Positions 4,092 through 17,600 of a stretch of DNA of 28,114 nt are shown in pieces. The DNA is taken from NCBI RefSeq assembly GCF_000002865.3, contig NW_001865044.1:640564-668677 (forward strand). The letters are read 5' to 3'. Numbering within the stretch: position 1 is the first letter of the stretch; every line of letters begins with the position of its first letter. Made by a program: the position numbers and the translations under genes. The notes below the pieces were generated by a model. That model ran no database searches and had not been told where the DNA came from. It saw nothing but the letters and a program-made list of their open reading frames with translations. Origin of the DNA: Monosiga brevicollis MX1 (taxonomy: Eukaryota > Opisthokonta > Choanoflagellata > Craspedida > Salpingoecidae).

Positions 4092-7000
4092 TTACTCATC
4101 AATCACGCTCATTGCTTCAGAGTCACCAACACCCGAATCGGCCACGGGTGGCTTGGCAGTCGATGTCGAGCTCTTGCCACCGACGAATGGCTCGCCGGCC
4201 GACGCCAGAACCTGCAATGCGCATGATGGAACCATGATGAGATGCCGTGCGACGATGCAGACCTAGCATGAGCCAGAAACCAACAACAACAACAAAAACA
4301 ACACACACACCATACACGTTTCAATCCGAGCCAATCGTACCTCTTGATTCGTGGCTAGTTCTTCGAGGGAGTGCACCAACTGACCCTGCAGGGTGTACAA
4401 ACGCCGAACGGGATTCATTCGTAATTTTTCGGTGCAGTCCACTAACAAATCCTCCAACGAACGGGCCATGCACAACAGCGGCGGTGCATCCCATGCACCG
4501 TTCCGCCGCGCCAGGACACGAGCCATCGGTCGCACAGGTTTGGCCAGGCGCTGAAAGAGATCCGGGTCTCGAGGTTGCGAGGCTTTGGCAATTTTGGGGC
4601 GCCCAGCCTCGTGTACAGCCAAGTCAATTTGCCGCAGACGCGCCTTAAACTGGGTCATGCGCTCAGCCACCGCTTCCAGATCCAGCTTGTTCGAATCCAG
4701 TTCTGTTTGCAGTGTGTCGAGACGGCGCCCCGTGGATTCGGTGGCCTCCTTCGCCATCAAAGCTTTCAAATTCTTGCGCTGGCTTTTTAGCGCCTGTGCT
4801 TCCTCCTTGCATCGTGCAAAGGCCCCACGCAGCTCCTGGCGCTCTTGACGCAAGGCATCGAAGCACGTTTCGGGTCGTACAAACGGCTCTCCGCACGAAA
4901 CCCACAACTCTAGATCATTGGCGTCCGAGACATGCTTTTTGCCGAGGCTGCTCAAGCGCTCTACAGGCGTCCCGTCACGCAAAAAGAGAGCCCGAGCTGC
5001 GTTGGCTAGATTTAACAGCCCTAAGATCCATGCCAACAAAATGCTGTGTTAGTTTCGAGTTGCCACAGAGAGGCACAGATTTCTTTCGCCTTCTGAATGC
5101 AGGTACCCCTGCCCCAAGCACGAAGGCACAGGGCAAGAGGGGGGACACTGCGCAGAGGAAATGGTCAACGTACGAGTTGCTTCACTCAACAAGAAGGCCA
5201 AGCTTCGCTCGTCGCTTTCCAACACCACCACAACCCGCTTGGACCGTGTTTTAAGCACCTCGCCGTTCTTGTACAAAACTGTCTTGAGGCGACGGCTCGG
5301 TTCGAGCGAGGACGTTGGAGCCGATGCTACAAGGTACGAGGATCTCGTGTGACACCAAAGCAAGATCGGCAAGTCGAAGGCAAGCATGCAAGAGAGCAGC
5401 AACATACGTTTAATGTGCACGGTACGACGATCTAAAACGCCGACAAGACGGCCCAGATAGCGATCCCAGCGCGCCAAAGCCTCCTCGGCATCCTCCACAC
5501 TGCGCAACGTGACCCTCGCACCCAAAGGCACGGGCTGTGGGGGTGCAAAGACCCCCTTGGGTCCACGCAACCCAAAGCGCGATTCAATCTCAAGAGCTCG
5601 GTTGCGATTACTACACACAAATGACTGCACGCCAAGACTCAGCGAGTGGGTCGAGGATGAGCCATTGTGGCCGCTGTTCTCGGCACAAGCCGGACAACTA
5701 AGCAGGCAAAATACCCGGCAGTGAGCCAAACCGTGACGAACAACAACAAAAAAGTGGTGGGCACAAAAGTGGGGCAAGGAGAAAAAATATTCCGCACATG
5801 AGATTATCTCGGGCATCAAGGTAGGCCAGTTGATCCACAGCCTGTGCGCCATGGAATGCGGCTGAGCACACGCCAGCTTGTTGTAGCAACCCTGGCAAGG
5901 AAGCCCCGGGTAATTGAAGGCGGAATGTAGCCCGATCCTTGACGGCCCGCACCAAGCTCATACGATTCTGCAAAAACCAACAAGCGGTGCTGCTGCATGA
6001 GTACACATGGGCAAGTATTCGCAGCGGGCAATCCCTATCACTACCCACGCACCGTGTTGCGATCCAACAGACAGAGGCGAGCCTCGCCATCAAAGTCCTC
6101 GCCCGCAGCAGCTTCAGCTCGTGCTTCTCGACGGGCCCAACCCAAGCAAAGATTGGCATCCATGGCACTCACAAAGAGCCCGTCCTCAACAATCCATTTT
6201 TGTCCAGGCTCGTTGAGCGCCAGGGGTTCCAGCGTGATCGTGGCTCCAGCCGCCACCTCGATTGCCGTCAGACAATCGTCGCCAACCATGAGCTGCCGCT
6301 GTGGCTTAAGCACAGCCTGGAGGGCGGCCTCCTCGTCCGTTGTTGTCGTGAACGTCGAGCCATTGCGCTGCGCAAAAGTGGCAATGCTGTCGGCAGCGGC
6401 ATACGCCTCGGCCACTTGGCGCAGGGCCCGAATTTCACCCTCGAGCAATTTGGTGGCCCGCGTGACGGCAGGACCAGGGTGCCACGGCTCGCCACAGCTC
6501 ACCTGCAGCACCACGGCTGAGTCAAATGTCTCTGGGTCTGTCACCGCCGCACCCCAGGGCGTGAACAGCTGGCGACTTGCGCCCGTCAGCTGTGGTAGTG
6601 CAGCATCACACTTGACCAACAGCAGCTCAAGCCGCCACTCCTGGCGCTCATCACGCTGCTGAGTGAGTGAATCGGTCATGCTGACGGCCCAGTCCGTACC
6701 GAGCTTTTTGCTCAGCCAGTGACGCGTGTCCTTGGGCAGGCTTGATGCCAAGGTCGCGGGCGCCATGGCATTACCCACGGTATTGCTGCGCCCACGCTCG
6801 CCGGCACTTAGAGGCAACACCACAGAGGAGGGTTCGGCGCCGGGGTTGACATTGGGTACAACCTTGAGCTTGCGGTGGTAGAGATGCCTGTCAAAGCGAG
6901 CCGAGCTGCGCTGCGTCGGCCAGGGCGCCTTGCCCACGAGGAGGGCCTCAAGGGGTGCTGGCATTTCCGCATTCCACTGACAGTTGGCGTCGCAGGGCCA

Positions 7001-10000
7001 CATGAGAGCCTTTTCAATCCATCGCCGATCCTGGTTCACGTCCCGTGATTCTTTGAAGAGTGCCACCTGGTCGAAGCGATACGACTTGAAGGCCCACCGC
7101 TGCCGCTGGCCCACTGCGGTTGCGGGTGCTTCGACGGCTTGTACCGACAGCACGACATGGTCTGCGCTAGAGCCATCGGCGCCGACAGCGTCATCCGCGG
7201 TCCATGCCACGCCACCCGAGGTCGGTGGGCTGCCATTGCCGTCGCTGTCCTCGTCTTGTTCACCGCGCTGGGTTTGTCCGTGGTCATTGTTGGTACTAGA
7301 AAAGCCCATGCTGGTGTTTTCGTCAGCGTGTTTCAACGCCACATCGACGGTTGCCGAGAGAGTCAGACCAAACTCTGCGTTGGCTGCCGTTCGAATTGTG
7401 CCATCGTCTGCAAAGAACCAGAGTGCATTCAAGTTACTTGCCGCCGCTTCTCCAAAGCCCACCGGCAAGGGAGACGCAGGAGAGTCGGCAGCCGGGTCAC
7501 CTAGCACGGTGAGGACCATGGAGGGACACAAGCGCGAGGATATGAAGCACAGAGTCGGCCCTTCAGTGGCAGTACGCAACGGTTGCACCTGCCAACGCTG
7601 GAGTAGGTTTGACTTGTCAGCTAACTGGCGCAGATGAAAGGCCACGCGCGGTTGGAAGACGGCCACCTCGCGCTCGCGACGCAGCAAGAGCATGGCCGTG
7701 CTGTGTGCCAACGGCTTGAGCCGTTCGAGTGCCTCCGTTCCCACGGTTTTGGCGTCGTACTTGAGAGCTTCGGGTACAGGCTCGTCGGCCGCCAAGAGAG
7801 CAAAGTTGTTGGCATTCAGTTCGTCATCTTCGACCACGTCAAAGTGCTCAACAAACATGGGATGCGGCGAGTTCGAGCTCTCGCTCGTTTCGGGTGTGGG
7901 TGTCTCGGTGTCGGAAGCAGTGGGGGCTCTGACCAAAACCTGTCGGGCGCCCGATAGCGAGACCCCCAACACCACGTCCTCGTAAGGGACAAAGGGTTCG
8001 CCACGCGAAACCCAGACAGTGTTGACCTTGCGCAACTGATGCACCTTGCGTAGCTCGCGTCCTGATTTATCAAAGAGGCGCTTGGCTGGTCCACCCAAAT
8101 CAAGAAGGCTGTCGATGCGAGCCAGCAGCAGAGCAAAGACGCCCTGGGCATCTTGAGCACGCCGCTCGGCCTCCCCGACATGAAAGGTGAAGGTCCGACT
8201 GTTTTCCGGGCGGGCAGGGAGACCATTGGGCACGGCAGCGAGGTACAGGGCGGGCCGAGCATCGACGAGCGTCGAGTTGGGCTTGAGGCGCGGGATGGAG
8301 GCGGCTAGCGGCGGCTCGGGCCCATCAGCGACGCTCTCTAACAAGGTCGCTCGACAAGCAAGAAGGTAGCGGCGCGACTCCTGTAGGCGATTGGTCTGCA
8401 GGTCCAAATCTCCGAGAGCCGCTTCTTGAGCCTCGTAGCCCGAGATGATAGAGTCGAGAATCTCTTTGCGTTGCTCGCACTGCTTGATACGCGCATCAAG
8501 GCGCTGGACATGATGTTGGATGAATGCGAGGGGCCCGCGAGTATCAAAGGCCTCGGTGCCTGCCACAACCCAGAAGGGTCCGGCCACGCGGCCGATAACG
8601 TACTGCAGCGCTGGGTGACACAGGGCGTGCAGATCACCAGTGGCCTCTCGGATGACGTGACCATCAAGGGCAAAGAGACGAGCGGCTGGCCCACTGAGAG
8701 CCAGCCGACGGGTGCAAGCGTGGAGTACGTCATCCAGGGAATCGGGAAGAAGCAAGGCGGTGCCGTTGATGCCCTCTCCAAGGTTGAAAAAGGTTGCGCG
8801 AAGCCGACCGGCTTGATCAATGGAGGCAGTGCAGCGCCCAGCAGACAGAGGCCGGGAGTTGGCGGTGCGACCGTGCAATCCGGAAGAGAGGCCAACAGAT
8901 GCCGAGAGGGAGGCTGTGGGCCCTAGTCGACGGCGATGCTCGGCCGCAACGCGGGCAAAAGGATCCGCAAAGGGCTCGCCGAGGCTCACGTAAACGATGG
9001 CATGGGGTTCCAGCAGTTGACAATCCTCGGTGGAGAGGAGCTCTTGGCCCGACTCATCGAAGAGACGGCGGGCGGCAAAGGGCAGGTCGAGGCGCTGGGT
9101 GCAGGCTCGCAGCAGGGCATGTAGCGTATCGCCTTGAACCCTGATGCCATGCTGATACGTTCCATTTTTGTGAGCCACACACCGCACGAGGTGGGGACGG
9201 GCCTGGTACATGCGGCGGGCTGCGGCCTCTGCGCGCCGTGAGGTCTCAAGTGGGGCTGAGGTGGGCCGAGCACGGACGGAGCGACGCAACGATTGGCTGC
9301 TAGCGCCGTTGTTGCGATGCACGGCTGAGGTGGGCCGTGAACGTCGAGAGGGAGCATTGCGCGGCAAGCGCATGGTAGCAGCATAGGGAGAATTATCGAC
9401 AAAACTGGCTCTGGTGAGGGTGCGGGGGCGAGATTGCGAGGTCATGGTCGATGTGCGGGAGCTTTGCGATGTATCTGAGCGGTAAGAAGATGGCCGCTGC
9501 GGCCGCGACGCCACAGGTATGGCCGCCGCATAGCGCTACATGGGCCCCGACGAAGACGTTGGGTAGGAGGGATGAGAAGGGATGTTGATCCACAAGCTTT
9601 GAGAACAAGGCGAGGGCCAAGACAGGCAACGGCTGAGTTCCGACGGAGGAGCGAAATAGCTCACCTGAAGCTGCTCCTGCTTTTCCCGACTGTCCAGCAG
9701 CTCATGAAGCAGCGTAGGATCCAACTACCGCATCATTGCAACAAGCCTCGGTCAAGACGGGGCGGCGAGGGCAGCGTGCTTGTGTGCGTTTTTGTGCACG
9801 TCTGTACGCGGCTGTGTGCAAGTGTGTAGAAAAGGACATGGACGCCGATCGCGGCAATGCCAGTGCTCGACTCACCTGCGGCATGATGACAGACTGTTGA
9901 TGATCCAGGTAATTCACGAGAGCCGTTGGCAGCGCAAGCTCCTGGGCAGCCCGGACTGCGTGCCACCAGCTGAGAACCCTGCCCAGCGCAGTCAGCAGTG

Positions 10001-10812: not shown

Positions 10813-13800
10813 ATGGAACTGTCTTGGGTCGGCCTGGCCGTTCGTGCCTTTGCCCTGCTTGGTACGCGAACCTGCTTCCCCTGTGCATCCATGCGCAGCC
10901 CCGAGCCGAAGCTCTGATTTTGCCGTGACGCCAATTGGGGCTTCGTTTACGGGACCATGTATATCGCTAACCTCATGTGCTCATATTTTTTTTCATTCTC
11001 CTTCCGCCCTCCACCGCCTTGTTCGGCAGTCTGGCCCCTTGGGGTGTGTGTTCCGTTGGCCACGACTCTCACACCGTCGGAGAGCGGGAACATGGCCCTC
11101 ATCTTCTTTGCCCTCCTCCCTCATTGGTTGTGGCCCCTCATCTACCTGGCGGAGCGCTTGGGTCTGACGGACTTTGGCGATCTGATCAGCCTGGTCGAGA
11201 TTCTTGTGGGCGCCGTGGCGTCAGGCTTGGTCCTACCCATCATCATTCTCACCCCGCTGCTGCAAACCCTGGATCTAACTCCCAGCGAATACGGCATGCT
11301 GTTGTTCAACATTATCATTCTGCCCAGTGTCTGGCTGCCCTTGGTCGTGGCTATTTTCCAAACCCCGATCGTGGTCGATGCCAAGCGCGCTGAAGACCTC
11401 CAGCCACAGCGCCAAAGCTTCTCCGATCACGCCGAACTACGTGGCGAGTTTAGCGTGAGCTATGGCAGCTACTTCTTGCTGGCTTCGGTTCCATTTGGCA
11501 TTTTTCTGCCCCTCTTCATTCACGGCACCACCAACGCTGCCGGCGAAGCGGCCGTGCTCTTTTTTCTTCTCCTTCTGGGCTCAGCCTCGGCCCTTTTGCT
11601 GGTGGCCCCGCGCCTGGGTTGGGTCCTGCATCAAACCATGCGCTGGTTCAAGGACGTGGCCAGCTATCGCGCACTGGCCGAGGGCGTGCTCTGTCTGGTT
11701 GTCCTCCCAGTCTGCCTCATGGTGCCCGTATTGGCTGAGGTTCACCTCAATCGGCCCTCTTACGACGTTCTCCAGGCGTGGTTGCTGGGTCTACCCGCCG
11801 TTACCCTCCTGCGCATGACTTTCACCCTGCATCGTGAAGCGCAGTATTTACCCTCCTACATGGCCGGTGTCTTCTTGGTTGTGGACCTCCCCTGCTTCAT
11901 CCTACTCCCTGCCTGGATTGCTGCCCATCCAGTGTCCATGGCGGGTGAGGTGACCTTCTTGGTCTTTATGCTCGTGCCGCTTGTTGCCGCCTTGGCCTTG
12001 GTCGTCTATTTGACGTTTACGTCCTATCAAAACCTACCCTTTCATCTCTTGACCAAGTATCTTGAGCCCGAGTGGTGGGTCGAGCAGGTTCTAGCCACGT
12101 TGATTTTTTCTGCGCCCATGCTTGTGGCTGTGCCCGTGTATTTTCGGGCTGACCTTGATCCTACCACCGATTACGTTCTCGTGGGCTTTCTTGTCGTTAT
12201 CGAGATCTTGCTGGCAGTGGCCTTCTTGGCCTCTTATGCCTTGCGTCAGAATGACATGCCAGACGCCATTTCGCTCGCCCCCACCATCGCGCGCTCTCGT
12301 GCAGGCACAGCCGTGTCGCGTAGTGATGCTGGATTAATGCGTGGCCCTGCCCACGCCCAGTTCTCTGCACAGGACCTTGAATCGCGGCGTGGTACAATGG
12401 CCAATGCGCGTCGTGACAGCGTTGATCCGACCCACGTTGATGCCGACGGCCTACCGGCACCGGCCGACAGTGCACCAGCGCCGGCACCCTCGAATGCATC
12501 TGCATACCGACCCTCCGTGGTATCTGCTGCAAGTTCCCAGGGCGGGCTGCTGGGGCACCGCGTGCCTGGCTCGTATCATGCTACCAACTGGGGCTCCATC
12601 TCCAAGGTACCGAAGGATTTCGACCCCGATGCTTTTGAAGAACCAGCGGCCATGGCTGGCAGTCCCCTGAATTCCACCGTCGAAGTTCGCACCTATGATC
12701 TTGCCACCCCGCTCGGAGCCTCGGGTCGCACCGAGGTGGCGACCGTGCTTACCGACACCCAGCCGCCCCCTTCCCCCGGAACCTCATTCAATGGTTCAGA
12801 TGCCGAGCGTCTCACACCAGACGCAAGCACCTTGCCCGCTCTACTGCCATCCGCTGAGAGGGAGCCCGTACACGCGCAGACCGGTGATGATACTGAGTAT
12901 GAGATTGTGCCGCTGCCCGAGCGCAGCGATGATCCGGACAAGTCCGAGTGGGAGCATTGCGATGTGTATGACCTGGATGCTAGCTCACACCTGCAGCTTC
13001 AAGACCGTACGTGTTCTCCTTTCGTGCCCGCAGCCGCTCGTGTCTACGCTGGCTCGTCCCGTGCCCATACATGCCGTCGAAGCATTGTTGTTTCTCCCGC
13101 TTGTGTGTCTATGTTTGCGTCCGTGACCGTGGTCGCAGCGTACTCACGCGTTGGATTCTTGACCCTGATAGGTGGCGTTTTTCTGTTTGTGAGCGAGAGC
13201 ACGGGCGAGGACTTGCGGCAGGGCGCATACCATTCTGCATACCCAGCGTATTTGTCGGGTACTGAAGATAGCTTTGTGCTCAAGTGGCCCTGCTATGCAA
13301 CCATGCAGACGCAAGAGGCCAGTGAGATTGGGCTGTCCAAGGTTGCCCATGCATCGCGCATTGCTCAGGCGTTCAATGCTGCGCTTGGTCGCTCCAGTGA
13401 AAATGCAGTGAGTTTCGCGCAACCACGCGCGGTGCAGTTGACGGCGCGGCCCGCTGCCAACGGGCGTGTGCCATGGGCGTTGCTTGAGCCGGAGCTGGAA
13501 GACCTCGAGGCCACCGGTGTCATGGACTACTTTTGTATCTTCAATGACTCGGCTGGTGGGGTGGTGAGCGAAGAGGACATGCAGGACGAGGTGGGCGACC
13601 ACGGTGAGGACTGGCGCGAGGAATTCCGCGAGTGTAATGACTTGGCCCAAGCCCTCAGTTGCTACAGTTACCATGCCTCCCAGCGCCAGGAGCTTATGAT
13701 TAACATCCAGGGCGTGCGCCACCGGTACACCAACCCTGACTTTCACTTTGCCTCGGCCGTCCACGATCCATACTTCTCACCCCATAACAACGGCCCTGAG

Positions 13801-13899
13801 GGCATTGCTGCGTTTCAACGGTCACATGTGCACAATGATTTCTGCCGGCTCGCCCTCCCCAGCTTGCCTGGTTTTACCGACTCGTGGTTGACGTCTTGA
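10813..13899 (+). CDS. Multi-pass membrane protein with C-terminal alpha-kinase fold (likely pseudokinase)
   Basis: Exons are 10813-10861, 11030-13006 and 13172-13899, giving about 917 residues. The first exon (MELSWVGLAVRAFALL, good start context) joins in phase 1. Residues 1 to about 420 contain about twelve hydrophobic segments of 18-25 residues separated by short loops, so this is a polytopic membrane protein; I do not recognise the transporter or channel family. Residues about 421-675 are a Ser/Pro/Ala-rich, probably disordered linker. Residues about 680-905 match the atypical alpha-kinase family (MHCK, eEF2K, TRPM6/7) in order: DLRQGAYHSAY as the glycine loop, FVLKW with the ATP-binding lysine, AFNAAL, an LLEPEL hinge, then MINIQG, YTNP, NNGPEGI and SHVHNDFC. 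Two catalytic aspartates of the family are asparagine here (family DxQG is NIQG, and TDP is TNP), so catalysis is probably lost. The second intron (165 nt, GTACGT donor) has no stop and is in frame, so retention would only insert 55 residues. Confidence 0.85.
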
Positions 13900-14648: not shown

Positions 14649-17600
14649 TTAGGCGGTGACGCATGCACGGTTGAAGTTGCCCGAGCCACGCATGCGGTAA
14701 CCATCGGGGCATGTCTGGGCGCAATAACCGTTGTAAAGGGCAAAGCCGTTTTTGCACACCTCACACGCGGTACCACCGAGGTTGCAACGGTAGCACTCAT
14801 CGACAAGGGCAGTGCAACCCACTCCACGCTCATGGCACTCAAGGTTGAAGTTGCCGCGACCAACCGGCATGTGCGTGTGGGGGCATGCGTCGATGCAGGA
14901 GCCCTCATGCAGGTACCGCGCGTCCCGACAGCGCACACACTGATCAGCTTCCTCGTCGCACAGGTCACAGCTGTCTTGACCGCGCTGGCAAGCACGATCC
15001 TTTTCGCAAAAGTTGTGAAAGTTGCCCCGGCCCTTGCCTGTATAACCAGCCGGGCAAGTCGTATGGCAGGTGCCGTTTAGAAGATATGTGCCATGGCGAC
15101 AGACCAAGCAGGTCTCAGGCATATCCTCATCGCAGCTGTGGCAATGGTCTGCACATACGCGCGCCCGGCGACAAGTGTTGCGGTAGTTGCCCGACCCCAC
15201 GTTGACATATCCGGCAGGGCAGGATGCAAGGCAGGCCCCGTCAAAAAGGAAGCGGCCCGATCCACAGACCGAGCACACATTGCGGTCGGCACTGCAGTCG
15301 TGGCAAAACTCATCAGCACACGCGAAAGCAGCCAACTGACAGTACTTGCCAAAGTTGCCACGACCGACTGGCTCGTAACCCGAGGGACATGAAGCCACGC
15401 AGCCATCCTCATGAAGAAAGTAGCCATTTTTGCACATGGTGCACAGATCACGGTCCTCCTCACACGAGTAGCACTCGTTATCGGCACAGCCAGCGAGCGC
15501 TTCCAAGCGGCATTCGTTGTTGAAGTTGCCACGGCCCACCTCTTCGTAGCCGGCGGGACAATGCTCAAGGCAGGCACCCGCATGGAGGTACCGACCACTG
15601 GAGCACACGGTGCACACCGAACGGTTACCAGCACAGTCATGGCAAAACTCGTCGGCGCAGGTGGGTTCCTCGACTTGAATCTCACGGCAGAAGCGGTTGA
15701 ACTGGCCCTTTCCGACGGCTTCAAAGCCGGCGGGGCAGGTCTCACGGCATGCGCCATTGTGAAGGAGGAACTTGTTTTTACACACTGCGCACTGCGCAAA
15801 GTCATCCGCGACACACGCATAGCACTGGTCCAGCTGACAAATGGCCGGTGTTGTAGAGGGCTCCATGCCCCAATCACCCGAGTCATCGCCTGAACCATCT
15901 TGATCTGGCACAGTATCGGTAGAAGCAGGCGCGGAGGTCGAGCTGGAAGCTCCCTGCGTTGGCAGTGTTGCAACAGTGCTGGGCTCGGCGTCCTGCTCAG
16001 TAGTGGGTTCCACCACCTCCTCCTCGGTGGTAGGCTCAGCAGCGGCCTTGGTGGTGGGTTCAGCAGCAGCCTCGGTGGTGTGTTCAGCAGCGGCCTTGGT
16101 GGTGGGTTCAGCAGCAGCCTCGGTGGTGTGTTCAGCAGCAGCCTCGGTGGTGGGTTCAGCAGCAGCCTCGGTGGTGTGTTCAGCAGCAGCCTCGGTGGTG
16201 GGTTCAGCAGCAGCCTCGGTCGTAGGCTCGGCAGCAGCCTCGGTCGTAGGCTCGGCAGCAGCCTCGGTCGTAGGCTCGGCAGCAGCCTCGGTCGTAGGCT
16301 CGGCAGCAGCACCAGTTGTGGGTTCAGCAGCAGCCGCGGTGGTGGGTTCAGCAGCAGCCTCGGTCGTAGGCTCGGCAGCAGCACCAGTTGTGGGTTCAGC
16401 ATCAGCACCAGTTGTGGGTTCAGCAGAGACAGTTTTTGTGACCTTTGCAGTTGTCATATCTTCGGGTGCACGAGTGGTGGGTTGCTCACCACTCAGCTCG
16501 TCATCACCGGAGCCCGTGCTAGGCATTGGCGTGGTCTCATCACGGTTTGTTGTGGAGGGAACGACAAAGTATCCGCAGTGAACCTCGCAATAGGAGGCAT
16601 AACCTACAGAGTAACTTGTTTATAAGCGAGCAACCTATTCCATCATGAAAGGCTGGATTCAGGCGCTACAAGCTTACCAATTTCGCCTTGCAGGCAGCGT
16701 GAACAGTGAGCACACGAGCCGTCTTGATGACAATATTCTTCTTCGCCGCAATGAGCGTCGGTCTGGCACTCCAAGGTTTCGTTGCGGCAATGGCTGGGGC
16801 AAGCTAAGGTTAACAGCATCATTTGAAGGTTGAGCCAACGTTAGTCTTTGCGCAGCCCATGGCACGTTTCTTTTAACTCAAGAACAGCAGTCAACCATGC
16901 GTGATGCAAAAACGCCCGAGCACTCGCAATCCGACGCACCGTGATCAACCGCGTCATCGTAGAACCAGCAGGCTTCGCATGCATAGCAATCCCCATGCCG
17001 GTCGCAATCTGAGCGAGGAGGGGATGGCAGATGAACTGAGGTGAGCTGAAGCCAAAACAAGTCAGTGGGTCGGAACAAGATACAGGAATCAAGTGGTGCA
17101 TACAAGAGCTGTCATCGCAGTCGTCGTGCGCCTGGCATTCGTTTGCTGAAAGAATGGGTAGAATGCGACATAGCAGGGGCAATCTCGCGCGTGAGTCGGG
17201 TTAAACGGTCAATAAGCAGCAGCATGATGCCATGCAAATGAGGGCGTACATTCAGCTCTAGCAGCACAATGCTCACTGCAGTCTACGTTATCCAGTGCAG
17301 CAAGGCCACCGCAGGCCAAGCACTATGGTGGTATCATAGAGCACATGAGTAAGAACGTTGATTTTGTGTTTCAAAGAGGACGTTTCGGCCATACCGAAAT
17401 GCACTCGTAGCCTTCACCGCAAAAAAAGCTACCCTCACAATGTGAATGGTGCTGGCATTCCAATTCGGGGTTGCGGCACTTGTCTGGACAAGCGCCTGAG
17501 TTGGAAGAGGACACAGGGTGAGGTGCGCGTGGAGAGCCGGGGGGCTGAGACGAAGAACACGGCCTTGGGGTGACCAAGACACACCTCCGTCAAAGGAATC

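Follow-up and report, generated by a model that had tools for sequence, protein, structure and literature searches.

A window of 28,114 nucleotides from the genome of the choanoflagellate Monosiga brevicollis MX1 (contig NW_001865044.1, positions 640,564 to 668,677 of the forward strand; coordinates below count from the first base of the window) was analysed, and a predicted gene at 10813..13899 (+) was found to end in an alpha-kinase domain in which both catalytic aspartates are replaced by asparagine. It is fairly likely that this domain forms the cytosolic C-terminus of a membrane protein with about 12 passes, and that it has kept the zinc-stapled alpha-kinase fold and lost phosphate transfer. 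Judged from its residues, the kinase tail probably binds rather than phosphorylates. The domain is regarded as an alpha-pseudokinase because both Asp residues are replaced, the Lys and the Gly of the G-x-F-x-K motif are lost, an Asp occupies the position of TRPM7 S1777 and the set of candidate zinc ligands is kept in kind. Anchoring in the membrane is proposed because a strongly hydrophobic region shares an open frame with the kinase domain.

Alpha-kinase domain and replacement of the catalytic aspartates

The domain was located at 13219..13845 (+), where a Pfam search matched PF02816 (Alpha_kinase) over profile positions 2-185 of 185 with 93.9 bits and E 1.7e-26 (curated cut-off 21.3 bits), and a genome-wide profile search recovered the same locus with 93.7 bits. 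This nearly full-length match bears out the family assignment made in an earlier reading of the letters alone (hereafter the sequence-only reading). The domain start proposed there, 13172, coincides with the opening base of the predicted last exon and so makes sense as an exon boundary; the coding frame begins at 13174. In a phmmer search against the PDB sequences, the best single-sequence match was TRPM7 (1ia9, E 1e-4).

In its catalytic region the domain reads NIQGVRHRYTNP, compared with DIQGVDDLYTDP in MHCK-A. Motif length and the spacing N-x-Q-G-(5)-T-N-P equal those of MHCK-A, so that no choice of gaps can shift the two Asn and their placement is not in doubt. The NIQG motif (AAC ATC CAG GGC) was found at 13702-13713 (+) and the TNPD motif (ACC AAC CCT GAC) at 13729-13740 (+). 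Asn177 (13702..13704, +) replaces the Asp of DxQG (TRPM7 D1765) and Asn187 (13732..13734, +) replaces the Asp of TDP (TRPM7 D1775, MHCK-A D766), both with the codon AAC and both placed by phmmer as well as by the C-lobe alignment. For the five chains with alignments given by phmmer (TRPM7, eEF2K and MHCK-A in three entries), each Asn fell on the corresponding Asp and no gap interrupted the motif. Both aspartates of an active alpha-kinase are thus missing. This agrees with the sequence-only reading, which had reported NIQG and TNP for DxQG and TDP. The assignment to D1765 and D1775 was likewise upheld, since the spacing in the TRPM7 alignment (D, Q at +2, T at +9, D at +10, S at +12) fits D1765, Q1767, T1774, D1775 and S1777 as named in PMC5318989. 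D1765 is described there as the key catalytic Asp of TRPM7, and Asp766 of MHCK-A is reported to be essential for catalysis and to be phosphorylated in several structures (PMC4876393).

Further losses in the cleft and retained residues

The two Asp losses noted in the sequence-only reading are not the sole damage to the active site. The G-x-F-x-K motif that follows the hinge reads GKFVK and GRFCK in two canonical alpha-kinase loci of the same genome, L001 and L002, and DYFCI (Asp118-Ile122; 13525..13539, +) in the window domain when the alignment is anchored on the EP of the hinge, so that both the Gly and the Lys expected of an active alpha-kinase are absent. The loss of the Lys holds under any alignment because Lys occurs in the domain only at residues 37 and 56, with none beyond 56; the loss of the Gly depends on how the sequences are aligned. 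In addition, Asp189 (13738..13740, +) stands at the position of TRPM7 S1777, where an acid is found in none of six canonical rows (TRPM7, MHCK-A, eEF2K, 4kuj, L001 and L002). In TRPM7, S1777 bonds to D1765, and S1777D/E is reported to abolish activity (PMC5318989).

Other residues of the active site were retained. Lys37 of the FVLK motif (motif at 13273-13284, +; codon at 13282..13284) matches by motif the ATP-site (adenosine triphosphate) Lys of the family (TRPM7 K1646, MHCK-A K645), and the same FVLK is printed for MHCK-A. Gln179 of QG (13708..13710, +; TRPM7 Q1767) was placed by phmmer and the C-lobe alignment, Asn205 of the N/D-loop (13786..13788, +; TRPM7 N1795) by phmmer, and Glu105 of the hinge W-x-L-x-EP-x-LE (13486..13488, +) by alignment with L001 and L002. 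The ATP-site Lys, the QG Gln and the N/D-loop Asn of an active alpha-kinase are therefore all present, and the retention of the Lys and the Gln had been recognised correctly before. A possible counterpart of the P-loop Arg (TRPM7 R1622, MHCK-A R592) is His20 (13231..13233, +), picked by eye from the pattern GAYHSAY; this is doubtful because the alignment of the N-lobe is unreliable. Alignments of the N-lobe with L001 and L002 varied with the MAFFT settings, and none of the proteins matched by residues 1-130 on their own is named as an alpha-kinase, every match having E 0.1 or worse. Claims on the N-lobe are therefore confined to the FVLK motif. The P-loop Arg of MHCK-A is described as important and not essential (PMC4876393).

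Among the six canonical rows 14 columns of the C-lobe are invariant. Nine of them are kept in the window domain, and the other five show one F-to-L, two D-to-N, one H-to-C and one C-to-H replacement. The chance that both catalytic Asp fall among 5 of 14 changed columns is about 11%, and the column count alone is weak; the pseudokinase case rests on the further active-site losses together with the kept structural residues. The candidate zinc ligands of the window domain are C, H, H and C, with Cys163 (13660..13662, +) at the position of H1751 and His220 at that of C1810, where the six canonical rows have Cys; His218 and Cys224 are kept (these three within 13825..13845, +, from the C-lobe alignment). 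A Cys2His2 set is thus still present, which suggests that the zinc ligands were preserved in kind. Two Cys/His exchanges of this sort would arise by chance with a probability of about 0.0014, a crude and after-the-fact estimate based on the share of Cys and His in the predicted protein (3.8%). H1751 is a zinc ligand in TRPM7 (PMC5318989), and the zinc sites of MHCK-A and eEF2K are described as Cys2-His2 (PMC9921739).

Gene model and coding status

A single open frame of 993 codons (10918-13899, +) spans the hydrophobic region and the kinase domain. Based on GT..AG ends and the reading frame, a gene of three exons was predicted, which would encode 917 amino acids with about 12 transmembrane helices and the C-terminal alpha-pseudokinase domain if spliced as proposed. 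Predicted exon 1 (10813..10861, +) opens with the ATG at 10813 and ends at the donor GTACGC; joined to 11030 it stays in frame, and a hydrophobic segment is formed that spans the join. Predicted intron 1 (10862..11029, +; 168 bp) has GT..AG ends and a coding score of 0.06 per codon over 10918-11029, the codon scores having been trained on four other frames of the same genome. Predicted exon 2 (11030..13006, +), with 0.24 per codon over 11032-13005, contains most of the transmembrane helices together with a linker that is polar and probably disordered. It is followed by a possible in-frame intron 2 (13007..13171, +; 165 bp) with GT..AG ends and CTGAT near the AG, whose coding score of 0.086 is intermediate between the in-frame (0.243) and off-frame (-0.197) values; the frame downstream is unchanged whether this stretch is spliced or retained. 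The predicted last exon is the kinase exon (13172-13899, +), which scores 0.253 per codon over 13174-13896 compared with an off-frame mean of -0.197 (standard deviation 0.127) in the neighbouring exon. The frame of the window gene thus looks open and coding-like.

Predicted membrane region and topology

A Kyte-Doolittle scan of the spliced model with a cut-off of 1.1 gave 12 hydrophobic segments, of which segments 2-12 lie at 11092..12231 (+). Lys and Arg are distributed 20 versus 2 on alternate sides of the membrane (11 in loops plus 9 within the tail's first 80 residues; 11 versus 2 without the tail), a bias that points to a cytosolic location of both termini and would place the kinase domain in the cytosol. 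The transmembrane region gave no Pfam match above cut-off (one match, to Orai-1, had 7.5 bits and E 4.1, cut-off 25) and no sequence match in the PDB, so that no TRPM channel region was recognised in it by either, and no second copy was found in the genome. Leu-Pro motifs were seen by eye to be repeated in several of the hydrophobic segments of 11092-12231, which may mean internal repeats. TMEM185, guessed from these motifs, had no match in the genome in a search that was uninformative.

Other alpha-kinases of the genome and searches for relatives

Three further alpha-kinase loci were detected in the genome. Two of these have both Asp; the third is a frame-broken copy and, like the window domain, reads NIQG. 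L001 (contig C51, 595949-596587, minus strand) is a canonical alpha-kinase on the window's own contig, approximately 57 kb from the window gene, and is 31% identical to the window domain. Both L001 and L002 have DLQG or DMQG and TDP, keep G-x-F-x-K and carry the zinc His and Cys residues in the usual order; we take them to be alpha-kinase-like loci of the VWA type. With the window domain as query, the genome returned four matches, namely the domain itself, L001 (E 1.3e-5), L002 (E 0.047) and another place (E 0.55).

The frame-broken locus (L004/L005; contig C54, about 1969226-1969826) is a near-copy of the L002 locus, 84.6% identical over 1609 aligned columns. Its frame is broken by a 4-base insertion, it reads NIQG (GAC to AAC) and TGP, and a loop is deleted. 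In this genome both Asp have been lost a second time here, apparently through decay. No break of this kind was found in the window frame.

Outside the genome, short-pattern searches returned 31, 0 and 22 pattern matches in viral contigs and 139 and 81 in bacterial and archaeal genome contigs, none of which was confirmed as a relative, and no relative was found in phage sequences searched with a fragment of MHCK-A. Among the titles listed in searches of the open-licence literature on alpha-kinases and pseudokinases in Monosiga brevicollis and choanoflagellates, and on transmembrane alpha-kinase pseudokinases, none reports the window protein.

Neighbouring and further frames

Downstream of the gene, a cysteine-rich frame at 14652-16616 (-) contains seven Furin-like stretches (PF15913) and Thr/Glu/Ala-rich repeats of the EPTTEAAA type. 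Upstream, matches of DCDC1-type doublecortin and ubiquitin-like domains were found in a frame at 6044-9532 (-), with a ricin-B lectin match below cut-off near the end of the frame. Elsewhere in the genome, C34:62786-65515 and C55:2085275-2088007 each have cadherin and SH2 matches about 2.5 kb apart within a single open frame, 1678 codons long in the first case and 1667 in the second, an arrangement reminiscent of the Monosiga brevicollis cadherins MBCDH1/2. Profile matches in the 39.5 Mb genome numbered 114 for SH2 and at least 150 for cadherin (150 of 288 candidates scored).

Proposed function and alternative explanations

The sequence-only reading had proposed a membrane-anchored pseudokinase. 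The residues fit that proposal, with inactivity deduced from them and the link to the membrane provided by a predicted gene model. The acceptor hydroxyl would not be oriented without the Asp of DxQG. In the absence of the TDP Asp, neither an Asp-phosphate of the kind seen in MHCK-A nor the normal hold on the metal would be expected; Asn at this position should bar the route through phospho-Asp and make metal binding weaker, and ATP binding need not be lost with it. Binding of a nucleotide by the window domain is plausible by analogy, since a structure of MHCK-A D766A with ATP is reported (PMC9921739), and the lost Lys of G-x-F-x-K argues for weaker or altered binding. The domain may thus work through binding: a nucleotide or partner peptide would fill its cleft, and whether the cleft is occupied would be relayed to the membrane part via the long polar linker. 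Alternatively, it may dock a partner at the membrane. Both the binding partner and the control of the membrane part by binding are conjectural. A precedent for such a domain is ALPK3, described as the family's first pseudokinase, in which four cleft residues are lost and activity was not detectable (PMC9698156). As in ALPK3, conserved cleft residues are lost here from a recognisable alpha-kinase domain, and a role as a non-catalytic anchor would follow a comparable logic.

Several observations weigh against this picture. The exon joins were predicted by eye. At a stricter cut-off of 1.6 the unspliced frame gave ten hydrophobic segments at 11092-12231, and retention of 13007-13171 would add a hydrophobic segment (13084-13140) just before the kinase, which may flip the side on which the kinase lies. 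AlphaFold predictions were too poor for fold comparison, with a predicted local distance difference test score (pLDDT) of 50.1 for the membrane region alone and 42.9 for the kinase domain, which was modelled together with fragments from relatives in four rows. Upstream of the C-lobe, the phmmer alignment to TRPM7 differs from the preferred EP-anchored alignment. The whole domain scored 93.7 bits versus 157.3 and 148.1 for the two canonical loci. The outside collections comprised viral, phage, bacterial and archaeal sequence and no eukaryote genomes. Moreover, a later paper (2023) treats ALPK3 as a signalling kinase, and the inactivity of that protein may be debated (PMC11358020).

A gene on its way to becoming a pseudogene, with Asn changes that simply reflect decay, is unlikely; this reading draws on the broken L004/L005 with its NIQG and TGP and on the lower domain score, yet the window frame is open over 993 codons with coding-like codon use in the kinase exon, nine of the 14 invariant C-lobe columns survive and the exchanges at the zinc ligand positions are in kind. 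A kinase that is still active, with a rewired active site in which Asp189 of TNPD takes over metal binding or catalysis, is slightly more improbable. WNK kinases, whose catalytic Lys is relocated, offer a parallel for such rewiring. Asp189 is two residues away from Asn187, which replaces the TDP Asp, and occupies a position where none of the canonical rows has an acid; in addition, Lys37, Glu105, Gln179 and Asn205 are kept. Nevertheless, no nearby substitute for the DxQG Asp was seen, the Lys of G-x-F-x-K is lost as well, and S1777D/E abolished the activity of TRPM7 even with both Asp present (PMC5318989).

The remaining alternatives concern the gene rather than the enzyme. The kinase domain and the transmembrane region might be separate genes that share a frame by chance, for which the 165 bp with GT..AG ends and weak coding score between the two could be adduced; we give this a low probability, as low as that of an active kinase, one frame of 993 codons spanning both parts and a donor/acceptor pair joining them in phase. 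A single base separates the AAC codon of each Asn from GAC, so the protein could carry Asp if adenosine-to-inosine editing made both sites read as GAC or if the assembly contained two errors. We regard this as very improbable: a frame that is otherwise open is unlikely to contain two independent errors only 31 bases apart or less, ADAR editing is known as a feature of animals, and the lost Lys and Asp189 would be left unexplained. Spontaneous deamidation of Asn was set aside as well, Asn-Ile and Asn-Pro being slow contexts.

If the membrane-anchored pseudokinase is real, alpha-kinase domains would have given rise to non-catalytic modules on more than one occasion, here outside animals, in a membrane-integrated form and with the opposite residues lost, and fusions of membrane proteins with alpha-kinases would extend beyond TRPM6/7. 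A natural double Asp-to-Asn variant would also provide a handle on separating nucleotide binding from phosphotransfer in the alpha-kinase fold.

Comparison with known systems

The window domain shares with MHCK-A and eEF2K an identical spacing of the C-lobe motifs as well as the QG, the N/D-loop Asn and the last Cys. It differs from them in that both Asp are present in these kinases, with D766 of MHCK-A found phosphorylated (PMC4876393).

With ALPK3 it has in common the alpha-kinase fold and the loss of residues in the interlobe cleft. The conserved residues listed as variant in ALPK3 are G1725, K1729, Q1769 and N1797 (PMC9698156); if these follow human TRPM7 numbering, G1725 and K1729 are, by our own mapping, the Gly and Lys of G-x-F-x-K, which would then be lost in both proteins. 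The remaining losses are opposite, as ALPK3 keeps its predicted catalytic Asp (D1774) as well as D1784 and lacks the cleft Gln and Asn, whereas the window domain lacks both Asp and keeps the Gln and the Asn. Furthermore, ALPK3 has Ig-like domains, and no multi-pass membrane region is described for it in the available part of PMC9698156.

The NUDT9H domain of TRPM2 resembles the window domain by analogy only, as an enzyme-derived cytosolic tail without activity that serves as a ligand sensor on a membrane protein (PMC5671594). The fold is unrelated, and ligand sensing by the window domain is a proposal; its logic would be comparable to that of human TRPM2, in which a former hydrolase domain was turned into a ligand-sensing tail.

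The predicted overall architecture, in which several membrane passes are followed by an alpha-kinase domain at a cytosolic C-terminus, is that of the channel-kinases TRPM6 and TRPM7. Unlike the window domain as read here, the kinase of TRPM7 is active, and the transmembrane region of the window protein comprises about 12 predicted segments, with no Pfam match above cut-off and no match among PDB sequences. The kinase fusion of TRPM6/7 is placed once, in vertebrates, in PMC13143021, and the fusion in the window would therefore be independent of it. Tentatively, and with more doubt than confidence, we suggest a history in which a 12-pass protein unrelated to TRPM was fused to an alpha-kinase in a choanoflagellate-type protist and the kinase then became a non-catalytic sensor, where binding of ATP without turnover could gate the membrane part, by a route opposite to that of ALPK3.

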